This document shows, piece after piece, positions 1 to 6,772 of a stretch of DNA of 64,000 nt. The stretch covers positions 62,001-126,000 of the forward strand of contig JAOSKK010000007.1 of assembly GCA_027493615.1 (NCBI GenBank), read 5' to 3'. The notes below the pieces were generated by a model. That model was not told the DNA's origin and ran no database searches. It saw only the letters and a program-made list of their open reading frames with translations. A program made the translations under genes and the position numbers. Each line of letters starts with the position of its first letter. Position 1 is the stretch's first letter. The DNA is from Verrucomicrobiota bacterium. GTDB taxonomy: Bacteria > Verrucomicrobiota > Verrucomicrobiia > Limisphaerales > J093.

Positions 1-1687
1 CTTGAGCAGGGATTCCGCCTTCTCCCGGTCGTAGGCGGGGTCGTCTTTGACCTTCTTGAGCAACGCCCAGAAGCTCTGGTACGTGGTGTAGTGCTCCAAC
101 ACGTCGAGGATGAACTTCTCCTCGATGGCCTGCCGCATCGAATACAGGCTGAAGGGCTCGAACTTGCCGTCGGGTCGCTTGCGCCCGAACAGTTCCAGCG
201 TCTTGTTCTTCGGGGTGGCCGTGAAGGCGAAGTAGCTGACGTTCGGCAGTCGCCCCCGCCGCTTCATCTCGGCCACGATGCGGTCTTCGAGGTCGTCCTC
301 CGGACTCCCGTCCTGCACTTCGGCTTCGTCCAACGAGTCGGTGGCGAGGACCTGCTTGAGGCTCTTGGTGCTTTCGCCCGACTGGCTGGAGTGGGCCTCG
401 TCGATGATGACGGCGAACCGTTTACCTTTGAGGGCCCCCATCTGGTCGGCGATCACGGGGAACTTCTGGAGCGTGGTGACGATGATGGTCTTGCCGTCTT
501 CCAGGGCCTGCTTCAACTGCCGGGCGGTCGTGTCGATGTTCTCGACCACGCCCAAGGTCTGCTCGAACTGGCGCACCGTTCGTTGAAGCTGACGGTCGAG
601 GACACGCCGGTCGGTGATGACGATGATCGAGTCAAACACCCGCTCATCCTTGGTGTCGTGGAGCACCGACAACTGGTGGGCGAGCCAGGCGATGGTGTTG
701 CTCTTGCCGCTCCCGGCACTGTGCTGGACGAGGTAGCAGTGCCCCACCCCCCGGTCCAGGGCATCCGCCACAATCCGCCGCACACAATCCAGTTGATGGT
801 AGCGGGGGAACAGGAGTTTCCTCTCCCCGGTCTTGTTCCCCTTGTCGTCCTCGATCTCGACGATGTGGATGAAGTGCTGGAGCAGGTTCAACACGCTGTC
901 CGGTGCCCAGACCTGTTCCCACAGGTAGGCGGTCGGGAACCCCTTCCATGACGGCGGATTGCCGGCGCCGAGGTTGTGGCCCTGGTTGAAGGGCAGGAAC
1001 CGGGTCTGGCCGCCCCGCAGTTCCGTCGTGACGTAAACCAGTGACGGATCCACGGCGAAATGCGCCAGGCAACGCCCGAACCGGAACAACGGCTCCTTCG
1101 GGTCACGGTCCAACCGGTACTGCTTCACCCCGTCCTGGACCGTCTGGCCTTGGAACGGGTTCTTCAGCTCCGCCGTGAACAACGGCAGACCGTTCAGGAA
1201 GATCGCCATGTCGAGGGACTTCTCGGTCTTCGGGCTGTACCGGATCTGGCGGACGACGACGAACTGGTTGGCCCGGTAGAGCTTCTGGGCCGACTCGTTC
1301 AGCCCCGAGGCGGGACGGAAGAACACCAAGCGGAACTTGCAGCCGTTGGCCTTGATGCCCTTGCGGAGGACATGGAGCGTGCCGTGTTTCTGAATCTCCG
1401 AGGCCAGCCGCTTCAGCAGGAGCGGTTTGGCGTCTGCCCCGTGCTGGGCCAGCAGCTTCTGCCACTCCTTGGGCTGACTGGCACGGAGGAAATCGAGGAC
1501 CTCCTGCGGGATGAGGCACAGTTCCCGGTCGTAGTCCGTGGGTTCCCGGCGACGGTAGCCCCAGACAGGTACAGGCCCCGTGGTCGCTCGCCCAACGCCC
1601 CCGCCTCCCGCTCATCTCCCCGCTCAGCGGGTCACCCAATAGGGCCGACTCGATGGCGGTCTCGAAGTTCTTCTCGGTCGTGTCCAC
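1..1687 (-). CDS. hsdR: Type I restriction enzyme R subunit (HsdR), C-terminus off the left edge; apparent frameshift near 1595-1605
   Basis: Reverse-strand translation gives MDTTEKNFETAIESALLGDPLSG...VWGYRRREPTDYDRELCLIPQEVLDFLRASQPKEW...YRANQFVVVRQIRYS...HCYLVQHSAGSGKSNTIAWLAHQL (Walker A)...IIDEAHSSQSGE...YFAFTATPKNKTLELFG...EEKFILDVLEHYTTYQSFWALLKK; a G-run indel breaks the frame near the N-terminus. Confidence 0.93.
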
Positions 1688-2144: not shown

Positions 2145-2414
2145 TCACGGCGCGAACTTACGGTCCACACCCGTAGCCCACAAGACGCAATCACCCGCCT
2201 CGATGTCCGCCAGCCTGGACTTGCCCCTCCAATGCCGCTTCGTGGGGAAGTTGACGATGTGCCTGGGATTGCCAAGCTGGCCCGTGCGGAAGACAAACAT
2301 CCGCCCCGGTTGAACTTCCTCCGGCTCACACGCTGTCCGGTAGGCCTGGTAGTTCTCGGGATACGGCTGGCGGAACTGCAAAGCGATGCCATTGCCCATG
2401 ATCCCCACCGTGTT
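2145..2414 (-). pseudogene. Macro-domain (DarG-like) protein, internal fragment (5' part displaced to 3063-3128, C-terminal part missing)
   Basis: NTVGIMGNGIALQFRQPYPENYQAYRTACEPEEVQPGRMFVFRTGQLGNPRHIVNFPTKRHWRGKSRLADIEAG matches the macro/Appr-1''-p signature; no start codon of its own at the homology boundary. Confidence 0.82.
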
Positions 2415-2464
2415 CGATGGAAAAGGGATTCGCCTGGTGGTAGCCGGCGCGGTAGAGTCGAGAC

Positions 2465-2674
2465 ATGACGGCTGAAGAAGTCAAATCGTTGCCGATGGCC
2501 CAGAAGATCCAGATCATGGAGGCCATCTGGGAGGACCTGCGAGATCGGCTCGAGGAATCGGATCTGCCACAACGGCTCAAGGACCTGCTGGATCAGCGTC
2601 GCTCGCGAGTTCGCGACGGTTCCGCAAAGGTTATGGACTGGGATCGTGTCAAGGCGGGCATCGGCAGGCCATAA
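2465..2674 (+). CDS. Addiction-module antitoxin (Unstab_antitox-like)
   Basis: MTAEEVKSLPMAQKIQIMEAIWEDLRDRLEESDLPQRLKDLLDQRRSRVRDGSAKVMDWDRVKAGIGRP; typical length and motif, directly upstream of a RelE/ParE ORF. Confidence 0.82.
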   Translation: MTAEEVKSLPMAQKIQIMEAIWEDLRDRLEESDLPQRLKDLLDQRRSRVRDGSAKVMDWDRVKAGIGRP

Positions 2675-2973
2675 TCACGCTCAGGATATCCGCAGATGCG
2701 CTTGCGGATCTAAACGATGGCTTCCTGTTCTACGAGGCACAGCAAGCTGGGTTGGGGGACTACTTCGCGACCTGTCTACGGGCCGACATCGAGGGACTCC
2801 GCGTGTATGCTGGCATCCATCGTGTGGTTTACCGCGATTACCACCGCCTCCTGAGCCGGGTGTTTCCCTATGGGATCTTCTACACCATTGAGGGTGACAC
2901 GGCGGTGATCTGGGCGGTGATCGATCTGCGTCGCGACCCGGAGTGGATACGAGCAAGGCTGCGTGAACAATAG
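2671..2973 (+). CDS. RelE/ParE-family toxin (start codon uncertain; in-frame ATA at 2671)
   Basis: IITLRISADALADLNDGFLFYEAQQAGLGDYFATCLRADIEGLRVYAGIHRVVYRDYHRLLSRVFPYGIFYTIEGDTAVIWAVIDLRRDPEWIRARLREQ; overlaps the antitoxin stop. Confidence 0.8.
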   Translation: MITLRISADALADLNDGFLFYEAQQAGLGDYFATCLRADIEGLRVYAGIHRVVYRDYHRLLSRVFPYGIFYTIEGDTAVIWAVIDLRRDPEWIRARLREQ

Positions 2974-3056
2974 CAGCGAACCAGCCGGTCGAGCGAATGG
3001 CGGCGGGCGAATGCGCTGCGCGAGATCGTGCGTCCTGGTTCGCCGCTATCGCTCAC
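2963..3056. repeat. Imperfect palindrome, 22-nt arms (2963-2984 / 3035-3056, 19/22 complementary) with ~50 nt loop, at the 3' end of the inserted TA cassette
   Basis: GTGAACAATAGCAGCGAACCAG versus reverse complement GTGAGCGATAGCGGCGAACCAG; toxin stop codon lies inside the left arm. Confidence 0.85.
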
Positions 3057-3062
3057 CTTGTC

Positions 3063-3128
3063 GTTTACCGTGTTGACCAGGGCTTCGGCGTCCGCCTCCA
3101 GCAGGTTACCGTTGATGTGCTCGATCAT
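3063..3128 (-). pseudogene. Macro-domain (DarG-like) protein, N-terminal fragment
   Basis: MIEHINGNLLEADAEALVNTVN, which joins NTVGIMGNGIALQF at 2414 when the 648 bp between is removed. Confidence 0.82.
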
Positions 3129-3202
3129 CGCTTACATGTCAGTAATACCAACTACGCTGGGCAGTGACAACCGGATCATGCGCCGCGCCGCTTAGATCGG
3201 TG

Positions 3203-4552
3203 TCACCCTGGGGAAGTCTCGGGTTGGGCGGCATTGGGGAGATCCGAAACCTGACGCACGTCAATCTGGCCGGTGACGGCGGCGGAGATGAGCGCCGTCC
3301 GGTATTCCTGCAACCGCTCAATCGCCGTCCGCATTTTCGCCGTGAGGGCGTCCAGCTTGGCGATTTCGGCATCGAGGTAGGCGGCAATGTCCTCTTGCTC
3401 AGCAGCCGTTGGGCAGCACAGCGTCAAGTTCTTGATCTGCTCAACATTGATGCGCTTGAACGTCACCCCCAGCGCAAGGGAGTCCAGTTGGCGCATCACC
3501 ACCGGTGAGCGAAGCTGGTAAACGAGAAACCGCTGATCGTTTGAAGGTGAGCGGATCAGGCAAACATCCTGACCCATGCAAAAGACTGCGTCGGTGTTGA
3601 CGTATGCAGCCGCACCAACTGTCGCATTCCTGCTGTAAATCACATCGCCACGCTTGGGACGCCTTCCGCCCTCGATCAGGGCCAAGTACTCGTCACGGGT
3701 TGTTAGGTTCGAGTTGCTCAGGTCGAGGTTGAAACTCTGGACTTCGCCAATGCTGGCGACGGGTACACCTTCCAGAACGAAAGGCACCGTCCGGTGCTTG
3801 CAGTCAATGACTTCCCAGTTCCGCTTGAGTGCGGTTACTTCCCAATGCGCCGGGATGCGCCCCAACCACGGGATGCCGGAGTCCTTCATGGGGGCGTCGG
3901 GGTTGAGCCCTTGAGTGACGGCGTGGCTGATGAGGGCCGTGCGCTTTTCCTGCAACAACTCGATCAACCGCTCCTTCTTCGCCACCAGCGCATCAATCTT
4001 CGCCGTCTCCCGGTCGAGAAACGAGGCGATGGCCGCCTGTTCGGCATCAGGTGGGAACGCGAGCCACGCCTTTACAATGTCGGCTGGGTTCGCCCGCTGG
4101 TGACTGCGGGTTACCGACTGGACCGTTGACGAAATCAAGTCCCGGACCGGCTGGGATGCGTAGAGGTAGTACGCAAATCGAAGCTCGCACCCTCTCGCCT
4201 TCAGCGGGACGAACTCTGTGGAACAGACGACTGGCAAGTCACGTCTCCTGGAGATCAACACGCAGCCCTTGCGGGGGTTGAGTTTGGAGACGAGCAGTTC
4301 GTCCCCATTGAGGGAAATCTTGTCGCTGTCGATCTCCGCTCCATTCTCCTCTCGTCCGTCGCCCGTTTCCTGTATCGCCGGGATCGAGTAGTGGAAGACT
4401 CTTCTGCCACCAAACGACTCTCGTCGGGCCTGCTCTTTCCTGTATTCAAGGACGGCATCCGCCCGCACGACCTCCCAATGCTCCGGTATCCGTCCCAGCC
4501 ACTCGACGCCGGAGTCCTTGTAGCGGGGGTACGGTTTCCACCTCGTGCTCAT
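3203..4552 (-). CDS. hsdS: Type I restriction-modification specificity subunit HsdS
   Basis: Two target-recognition modules with repeated YKDSGVEWLGRIPEHWEV / MKDSGIPWLGRIPAHWEV and LIELLQEKRTALISHAVTQGL / AIERLQEYRTALISAAVTGQID; start overlaps hsdM stop (ATGA). Confidence 0.95.
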   Translation of the reverse strand: MSTRWKPYPRYKDSGVEWLGRIPEHWEVVRADAVLEYRKEQARRESFGGRRVFHYSIPAIQETGDGREENGAEIDSDKISLNGDELLVSKLNPRKGCVLISRRRDLPVVCSTEFVPLKARGCELRFAYYLYASQPVRDLISSTVQSVTRSHQRANPADIVKAWLAFPPDAEQAAIASFLDRETAKIDALVAKKERLIELLQEKRTALISHAVTQGLNPDAPMKDSGIPWLGRIPAHWEVTALKRNWEVIDCKHRTVPFVLEGVPVASIGEVQSFNLDLSNSNLTTRDEYLALIEGGRRPKRGDVIYSRNATVGAAAYVNTDAVFCMGQDVCLIRSPSNDQRFLVYQLRSPVVMRQLDSLALGVTFKRINVEQIKNLTLCCPTAAEQEDIAAYLDAEIAKLDALTAKMRTAIERLQEYRTALISAAVTGQIDVRQVSDLPNAAQPETSPG

Positions 4553-6588
4553 CGGGTGATTGCCTTGAGCATCGCCACGATCTCAGATTCGAGCGTCTTG
4601 ATGTCCGCCTCGATGGCGGCCAGGGGGCGGGGCGGTTGGTACTGGTAGAAGTAGCGGTTGAAGTTGATTTCGTAGCCCACCTTGCCGACCTCGTTGTCCT
4701 GGGGGTCACGGACGGTCGTGTTGATCCAGGCGTCGGGGACATGCGGCTTCACCTCCCGGTCGAAGTGCTCATGGATGTCCTGGGTGAGCGGGACGTTCTC
4801 GGTGTCCCGCAACTCGGGGTCGGGCTCTGGTTGACCGTCGTCGTCACGGCAAATCTCGGCGGTCTCGTCCCGTTCGGACAGGGCGGTGAGAATGGCCTTC
4901 CGGACCGGCGCACCGACCTTCAAGCCCGCCCGTTTCAGGGCGTCGTCCATGAGCGGCCCGAACTCCGCCCGGTCCTTCCAGAGCCTGTTCGGCAACGTCC
5001 CCAGCGCCTTGAGGATGGCGGCCTGCAACTTCCGGCCCTCGGCTTCCTCGGCGGCCTTGGCCTTGGCCTCCTTCTTCTTGCTGACGGCGAGGTTCTGGAA
5101 CCCGCTTTCCTGTTCGAGCCGGGCCAGGCGTTCGGGGGTGACCTGGAAGTTCAACCGCAGCGGTCGTTCGACCGTGATCTTGCGGTAACCGAACTCGATG
5201 CTGTCGAAGATGCGGCAGTGCTCGCCCGCCTCGAACCGGCTGTAGAGGTCCACGATCTGCCGGATCTGGTTGTCGCCGATCTCCCGGCGCTTGTTCCCGA
5301 GGCTCTTGCGCATCGGGGTCCAGAAACCCGAGGCGTCGATGAGCTGGACCTTGTTCCGGCGGCGTTTCTCCTTCCGATTGCTCAACACCCAGACGTACGT
5401 GCTGATGCCGGTGTTGTAGAACAGTTGCTCGGGGAGGGCGATGATTGCCTCGAGCCAGTCGTTTTCCAGGATCCAGCGCCGGATCTCGCTCTCGCCGCTC
5501 CCGGCATCCCCCGTGAACAGGGGCGCCCCGTTCATCACGATGGCCACCCGTCCGCCGCCATCCGCCGGTTCCTTCATCCGGGAGAGCATGTGTTGGAGGA
5601 ACAGGAGCTGGCCGTCGCTGATGCGGGGCAGGCCCGCCCCGAATCGGCCAGCATGACCCCGCTCGGCCTCGGCCTCGACGGCGGCCTGGTCCAGTTTCCA
5701 ATCCTTGCCGTAGGGCGGGTTGGCGCATTGGTAGTCGTAGCGGCGGGGGCCGAGCTGCCAGTCCGAGAGCGTGCTGCCGAACCGGATGTTGTCGGCGTCC
5801 CGCCCGTCCACCGACTTCATGTAGAGGTCGGCCTTGCAGACGGCGAAGGTCTCGGGCTGGGACTCGTGCCCGAACATGTGGACCTCGGCGTTCGGGTTGA
5901 GGGCGAGGATCTGCTCCTTGGCGGTGGTGAGCATGCCGCCGGTGCCGCAGCAGGGGTCGCACACGGTGCGGACGATGGCCTTCTGCTTGATGACCTCCCG
6001 ATCCACCGAGACCAGGAGGGTCGCCATCAGGCGGACGACCTCCCGGGGGGTGAAGTGCTCGCCGGGGTTTTCGTCGAGGGCCTCGTTGAACCGGCGGACC
6101 AGCTCCTCGAAGATGGTGCCCATCTCGTGGTTGGAGACCCGGTCGGGATGCAGGTCCACGACGTTGCTGGCGAACCGCTCCATGACCAGGAAGAGCAGGC
6201 CGTGTTCGTCGAGCTTGGCGATGGTGTTGGGGAAATCGAACTTGTCGAGGACCTCCCGCATGTTCTCGGAGAAGCCGTTCAGGTAGGTGCGGAGGTTGGC
6301 GGCGAGGTTGGGCGGGTCATCGAGGAGCTTCTCGAAGTCGTAGCGGGAGGTGTTGTAGAAGGCGAAGCCGGCGGCCTTGCGGAGCTGGGGGTCGAGGTTT
6401 TCGAGTTTGCCCTTGAGCTTGGCGTGGGTGGTCAGGACCCGCTCCTTGGTCGGGGCGAGCACGCAGTCGATGCGGCGGAGGACGGTGAAGGGGAGGATGA
6501 CGTCCTGGTACTTGCCCCGCTTGAACCGGTCACGAAGGAGCTCCGCAATGGACCACAGGAAGTTGACCTTCTCGCCAAAGTTGTTCAT
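4549..6588 (-). CDS. hsdM: Type I restriction-modification methyltransferase HsdM
   Basis: MNNFGEKVNFLWSIAELLRDRFKRGKYQDVILPFTVLRRIDCVL...GEHFTPREVVRLM...CDPCCGTGGML...ANPPYGKDWK; the listed 738 aa ORF start is too far upstream. Confidence 0.95.
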   Translation of the reverse strand: MNNFGEKVNFLWSIAELLRDRFKRGKYQDVILPFTVLRRIDCVLAPTKERVLTTHAKLKGKLENLDPQLRKAAGFAFYNTSRYDFEKLLDDPPNLAANLRTYLNGFSENMREVLDKFDFPNTIAKLDEHGLLFLVMERFASNVVDLHPDRVSNHEMGTIFEELVRRFNEALDENPGEHFTPREVVRLMATLLVSVDREVIKQKAIVRTVCDPCCGTGGMLTTAKEQILALNPNAEVHMFGHESQPETFAVCKADLYMKSVDGRDADNIRFGSTLSDWQLGPRRYDYQCANPPYGKDWKLDQAAVEAEAERGHAGRFGAGLPRISDGQLLFLQHMLSRMKEPADGGGRVAIVMNGAPLFTGDAGSGESEIRRWILENDWLEAIIALPEQLFYNTGISTYVWVLSNRKEKRRRNKVQLIDASGFWTPMRKSLGNKRREIGDNQIRQIVDLYSRFEAGEHCRIFDSIEFGYRKITVERPLRLNFQVTPERLARLEQESGFQNLAVSKKKEAKAKAAEEAEGRKLQAAILKALGTLPNRLWKDRAEFGPLMDDALKRAGLKVGAPVRKAILTALSERDETAEICRDDDGQPEPDPELRDTENVPLTQDIHEHFDREVKPHVPDAWINTTVRDPQDNEVGKVGYEINFNRYFYQYQPPRPLAAIEADIKTLESEIVAMLKAITR

Positions 6589-6690
6589 CGGCTGATTCGG
6601 GGGCGAGGGTACCGGAAGCGGGGGACCGGGGACAAAGGGTTTCGGCGGCGGCGGGACAAGGGGCGGAAGCGGTCTGACCGCGAGGGGCAT

Positions 6691-6772
6691 GGGAAGCGGC
6701 CGGTTCCTCCTGGACCTGCTCGCGGGCCGTGACCCCGGGGCGTGCAGGCGGGACGCCCGCACCACCGGTTCA
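6691..6772. repeat. Dispersed repeat (GTGCAGGC...GCCCGCACCAC family), copy A
   Basis: Aligns with 24536-24618: GGGAAGCG..CCGTTCCT.C.GGACCTGCTC..GGGCC.TGA.CC..G..G.GTGCAGGC.GGA.GCCCGCACCAC.GGTTCA. Confidence 0.75.

Follow-up and report, generated by a model that had tools for sequence, protein, structure and literature searches.

In the window analysed here, a stretch of 64,000 nucleotides from a Verrucomicrobiota bacterium, darG lies within a type I restriction-modification (RM) locus and is interrupted at codon 22. The interrupting block carries, on the strand opposite to darG, an Unstab_antitox/ParE pair. The initial annotation regarded this block as a discrete mobile toxin-antitoxin (TA) unit with identifiable ends, which raises the question of what kind of unit it is, and by what route it arrived inside darG.

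The interrupted gene and its surroundings

1..1687, minus strand: 5' part of hsdR, running off the window
2145..2414, minus strand: 3' fragment of darG, codon 22 to about codon 100 (NF048014), the rest of the gene missing
3063..3128, minus strand: 5' fragment of darG, codons 1-22 (tblastn to intact DarG residues 1-22)
3203..4552, minus strand: hsdS, type I RM specificity subunit (PF01420, 8e-19)
4549..6765, minus strand: hsdM, up to 61% identical to HsdM beside intact darG loci

Both darG fragments and the TA pair are present as first described, inside a macro-domain gene of a type I RM locus and with exact boundaries, and the GTT reported on both sides of the insert is there as well. The 3' fragment matches Pfam Macro (6e-10) and the NCBIfam DarG model NF048014 (6.7e-37, profile positions 21-94 of 338), and in tblastn comparisons with intact DarG the 5' fragment covers residues 1-22 and the 3' fragment residue 22 onward, with no gap between them. 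The reading frame runs through the site in 79 darG homologues, on which the two fragments abut exactly. Where the two fragments meet, intact homologues carry just one Asn (NTV-N-CVGVMG). The insert therefore measures 651 bp (2413-3063), three bases above the 648 bp (2415-3062) originally proposed, the removal of which leaves one Asn too many. The GTT on both flanks represents a single ancestral GTT, the shared crossover core. An ancestral presence of the TA pair at this place is contradicted by the 79 uninterrupted homologues and by the attC described below, which has no such counterpart in any of 82 darG loci.

In relatives from several phyla the gene order is hsdM-hsdS-darG-hsdR, with darT located between hsdS and darG in all three relatives examined (one confirmed with PF14487, 1.7e-65). 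The window resembles these DarTG loci beside type I RM genes in its gene order; however, darT has been lost, and darG is truncated as well as interrupted. No darT is present between hsdS and darG in the window, and no DarT was found in the whole assembly, which is about 81% complete. The window match to DarG stops at about residue 95-100, while the homologues are about 345-360 amino acids long, and a search of 1500-2145 for the lost 3' part returned nothing at E 0.01 or better. Neither a full-length DarG nor a DarT partner, the two components of an intact DarTG, is found at this locus. The gene darG, which encodes the antitoxin of DarTG, is decayed here. As darT is gone and darG truncated, the target was probably neutral for insertion, and selection need not have played a part, as an antitoxin is presumably dispensable once its toxin is absent. 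No sister genome was found in which this RM locus has an uninterrupted site, and three genomes of the same genus do not have this darG.

The N-terminal region of hsdR (1330-1690) contains an apparent frameshift between about 1330 and 1620, which may mean that the RM system is inactive, or that the base calls in this region are wrong. Between darG and hsdR, at 1723-1947, a HicB-like antitoxin remnant with broken frames was recognised by eye (its Pfam support is marginal), and no toxin partner was seen with it.

Cassette anatomy and the integrons of the genome

2413..3063, plus strand: insert, read as an integron gene cassette, 651 bp, between G2412 and T3064
2412..2414, plus strand: left crossover core (G^TT), at a distance of exactly 651 bases from the right one; cassette start GTTCGATGG
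2465..2674, plus strand: antitoxin gene (PF09720 Unstab_antitox, 2e-11)
2671..2973, plus strand: RelE/ParE-type toxin frame (PF05016, 5e-6)
2975..3065, plus strand: attC site, covariance-model match of 75.3 bits, all modelled pairs standard
2975-2981, plus strand: attC R'', AGCGAAC
2991-3006, plus strand: attC L'', with extrahelical A2997
3007-3039, plus strand: attC loop
3040-3054, plus strand: attC L'
3063-3065, plus strand: attC GTT, right crossover core
C38:26181-27109, C39:498161-499093, C23:870672-871604 and C38:405089-405739: integron integrase loci elsewhere in the genome

When the insert with its edges was used as a query in a DNA search of its own genome (G000; a draft of 39 contigs), only itself and two partial matches were found, both to the last ~90 bases of the insert (83% and 78%), about 510 bp apart on contig C38. 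There is no second copy of the TA cassette in the assembly. The C38 matches point to an array (L004, minus strand) of repeated sites of ~90-130 bases beside an integron-integrase gene, which by their sequence are attC sites. A covariance model built from three sites of this array only, with the window left out, matches window 2973-3067 with 75.3 bits. The E-value is 1.8e-19 for the whole genome and 3.4e-21 for 138 kb, and among the 16 matches in the genome the window site ranks fifth. The 3' end of the insert shows the R''-L''-L'-R' pairing of an attC, all modelled stem pairs being standard, and an extrahelical A on the L'' side, as expected. To judge from this comparison, the window site belongs to the attC family of the genome's own integrons. 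No Rfam family matches these attC sites, and DNA folding of the 3' end of the insert taken alone was not significant (z -1.25), hence the case for an attC rests on comparison rather than on folding energy. A terminal hairpin formed by an imperfect 22-nt inverted repeat (2963-2984/3035-3056) was also considered, and the attC pairing explains the region better.

The genome contains four integron integrase (IntI) loci, two of them full-length (TIGR02249, 427 bits on C23 and 394 bits on C39), one frameshifted and one in pieces. The IntI beside the C38 array matches TIGR02249 with 7.2e-72 for its main part and is frameshifted after residue ~49, while the IntI at C38:405 kb is broken. All four have attC sites within about 10 kb. 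The attC sites most similar to that of the window are those of the array with the frameshifted IntI, and the full-length IntI on C39 has one similar attC nearby. The remaining matches to the model lie within about 10 kb of IntI on C39, C23 and at C38:405 kb, form a cluster at C38:1058-1060 kb, or are single. In a genome search with TIGR02249 and the covariance model, the contig of the window (C7) contained no IntI and no other attC.

Within the C38 array, the two cassettes nearest to IntI (L004 10945-11540) carry an attC type unlike that of the next three. Two attC sites away from any integrase, lone-looking at C38:67008 (in L053, C38:64001-70000, at 2605-3133) and C2:116196 (in L056, C2:113001-119000, at 3196-3321), were also seen. 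The one at C38:67008 follows a MazF/PemK-type toxin gene and may mark another TA cassette outside an integron, or may be part of a small array.

The 5' end of the insert is that of a cassette as well. From the R'' region GCAGCGAAC the start of the circular cassette is expected to be GTTCGCTGC, and the start observed at the darG break is GTTCGATGG, so that seven of the first nine bases agree with the reverse complement of R'' in this cassette, a match that reads as the signature of a circular cassette. The cassettes checked in the C38 array agree with their own R'' in 7-9 of 9 bases, starting with GTT followed by complementary bases (GTTCGGG/CCCGAAC, GTTGGGT/ACCCAAC, GTTCGGC/GCCGAAC). Strictly, the window start does not conform to GTTRRRY, but GTTCG also opens several of the array cassettes. 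As one chance GTT within the antitoxin gene also reaches 7/9, the end could not be placed by the imperfect complementarity without the darG break; the two combined do place it. The ends at 2413 and 3063 are thereby determined in three ways, by the darG break, by the 3' end of attC and by the match between R'' and the start, and they enclose a compact unit of 651 bp with the TA pair on the plus strand, attC after it and a 5' boundary exactly at the crossover.

Origin of the insertion

With high confidence, I interpret the 651-bp block as a single integron TA cassette with its attC, located at a secondary (attG-like) site. In this reading, a cassette had been excised as a circle, and IntI recombined its folded attC with a G^TT core that darG contains by chance, namely G^TTTACC on the plus strand, which is the Asn22 codon of darG on the minus strand, and the cassette would thereby have been placed outside any integron. 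The position between G2412 and T3064 lies within the darG coding sequence, and is neither an attI nor an attC site. IntI is known to act at low frequency on secondary sites, where the inserted cassette has a single attC and is difficult to excise (PMC2426708), and secondary sites in genomes are now named attG (PMC12444791, PMC12901181). With only one flanking attC, the window cassette would likewise be hard to excise and effectively fixed. IntI probably catalysed the insertion, and the cassette presumably originated in one of the integrons of this genome. The earlier view of a mobile TA unit therefore needs to be divided: the unit is discrete, has exact ends and is inserted in darG, but it is a non-autonomous integron cassette rather than an element mobile in its own right, the GTT triplets being the crossover core of the integrase.

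Alternatively, the block could be a self-standing transposon-like or MITE-like TA element, as two copies of GTT are formally indistinguishable from a 3-bp target duplication. However, the block lacks a transposase frame, and its ends show no terminal inverted repeats. An attC of the same family as those in the genome's integrons forms the 3' end, and the relatives of the TA pair are array cassettes. I consider this explanation scarcely credible and reject it, and the GTT on both sides is best read as the G^TT crossover of an integron integrase. Base-level errors are possible in a draft of 39 contigs with several frameshifted genes, and part of a cassette could have been joined from an integron array to darG by chimeric assembly. 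This is nevertheless very unlikely, as both junctions lie exactly on G^TT, obey the rules for cassettes and independently match the darG break, neither half of darG is missing and the two meet perfectly, and the assembly has no second copy of the TA cassette. There is a small chance, too, that homologous or illegitimate recombination rather than IntI put an array fragment into darG, since darTG has undergone other deletions. Against this, the insert comprises exactly one cassette from crossover to crossover, without array DNA beyond it and without the loss of a single darG base.

The preferred reading, a cassette inserted at a secondary site, makes the window a new instance of a known process. 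As in the cassettes described at secondary or attG sites (Recchia 1994; Loot 2024), a single cassette with a single flanking attC is found at a G^TT core that is neither attI nor attC, and the host gene is interrupted. In contrast to those, the genome here is a natural one carrying several chromosomal integrons, a TA pair forms the cargo, and the target is a darG that is decayed and belongs to a type I RM locus. A natural precedent is dfrA14 in strA on pUK1329, pCERC1 and related plasmids, also a one-cassette insertion at a secondary site inside a gene (PMC4500777), although with drug-resistance cargo on plasmids instead of a TA pair in an environmental genome. It is a natural example that allows the ends of the cassette, the integrons sharing its attC type and the disrupted target gene to be read from a single genome. 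To my knowledge, most documented cases of cassettes inserted outside integrons come from laboratory strains and resistance plasmids. A far-reaching generalisation would be that IntI in this integron-rich lineage regularly seeds the chromosome with hard-to-excise single TA cassettes, and that the one in the window took over from DarTG the role of stabilising the RM locus; I regard this as doubtful.

The toxin-antitoxin cargo

TA pairs are common integron cargo, and insertions of this kind would offer them a route to become ordinary chromosomal genes. The pair in the window is presumed to be an active toxin-antitoxin system. Unlike the frames of related toxins, which start with ATG, the toxin frame in the window starts with ATA. 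The start codon may thus have been lost, in which case little or no functional toxin may be produced; alternatively, the base may be an error, as several nearby genes are frameshifted.

Of 196 genomes from the order, half encode homologues of the toxin. In G138 a toxin of 75% identity is located in a cassette directly before an attC, with the start GTTCGATCC and the R'' GGATCGAAC in full agreement (9/9). The same cassette anatomy was recognised by eye around a TA pair of 76% identity in G081, which was not scored by the covariance model, and toxin relatives in G064, G102 and other genomes adjoin attC sites, while the relative in G080 (77%) has no clear attC. A plasmid reservoir for the toxin was not found, the best matches being distant relatives with 34% identity.

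Like the TA cassettes of chromosomal integrons, such as the Vibrio cholerae superintegron, which are reported to carry their own promoter, the window cassette consists of a TA pair for which an own promoter is expected (PMC11023631). It differs from these by its location outside any array and antisense to the gene it interrupts. Since the cassette is antisense to the hsd genes, the TA pair must use its own promoter. A TAnnnT hexamer, read by eye shortly upstream of the antitoxin ATG in the window and in several relatives, is compatible with such a putative promoter.
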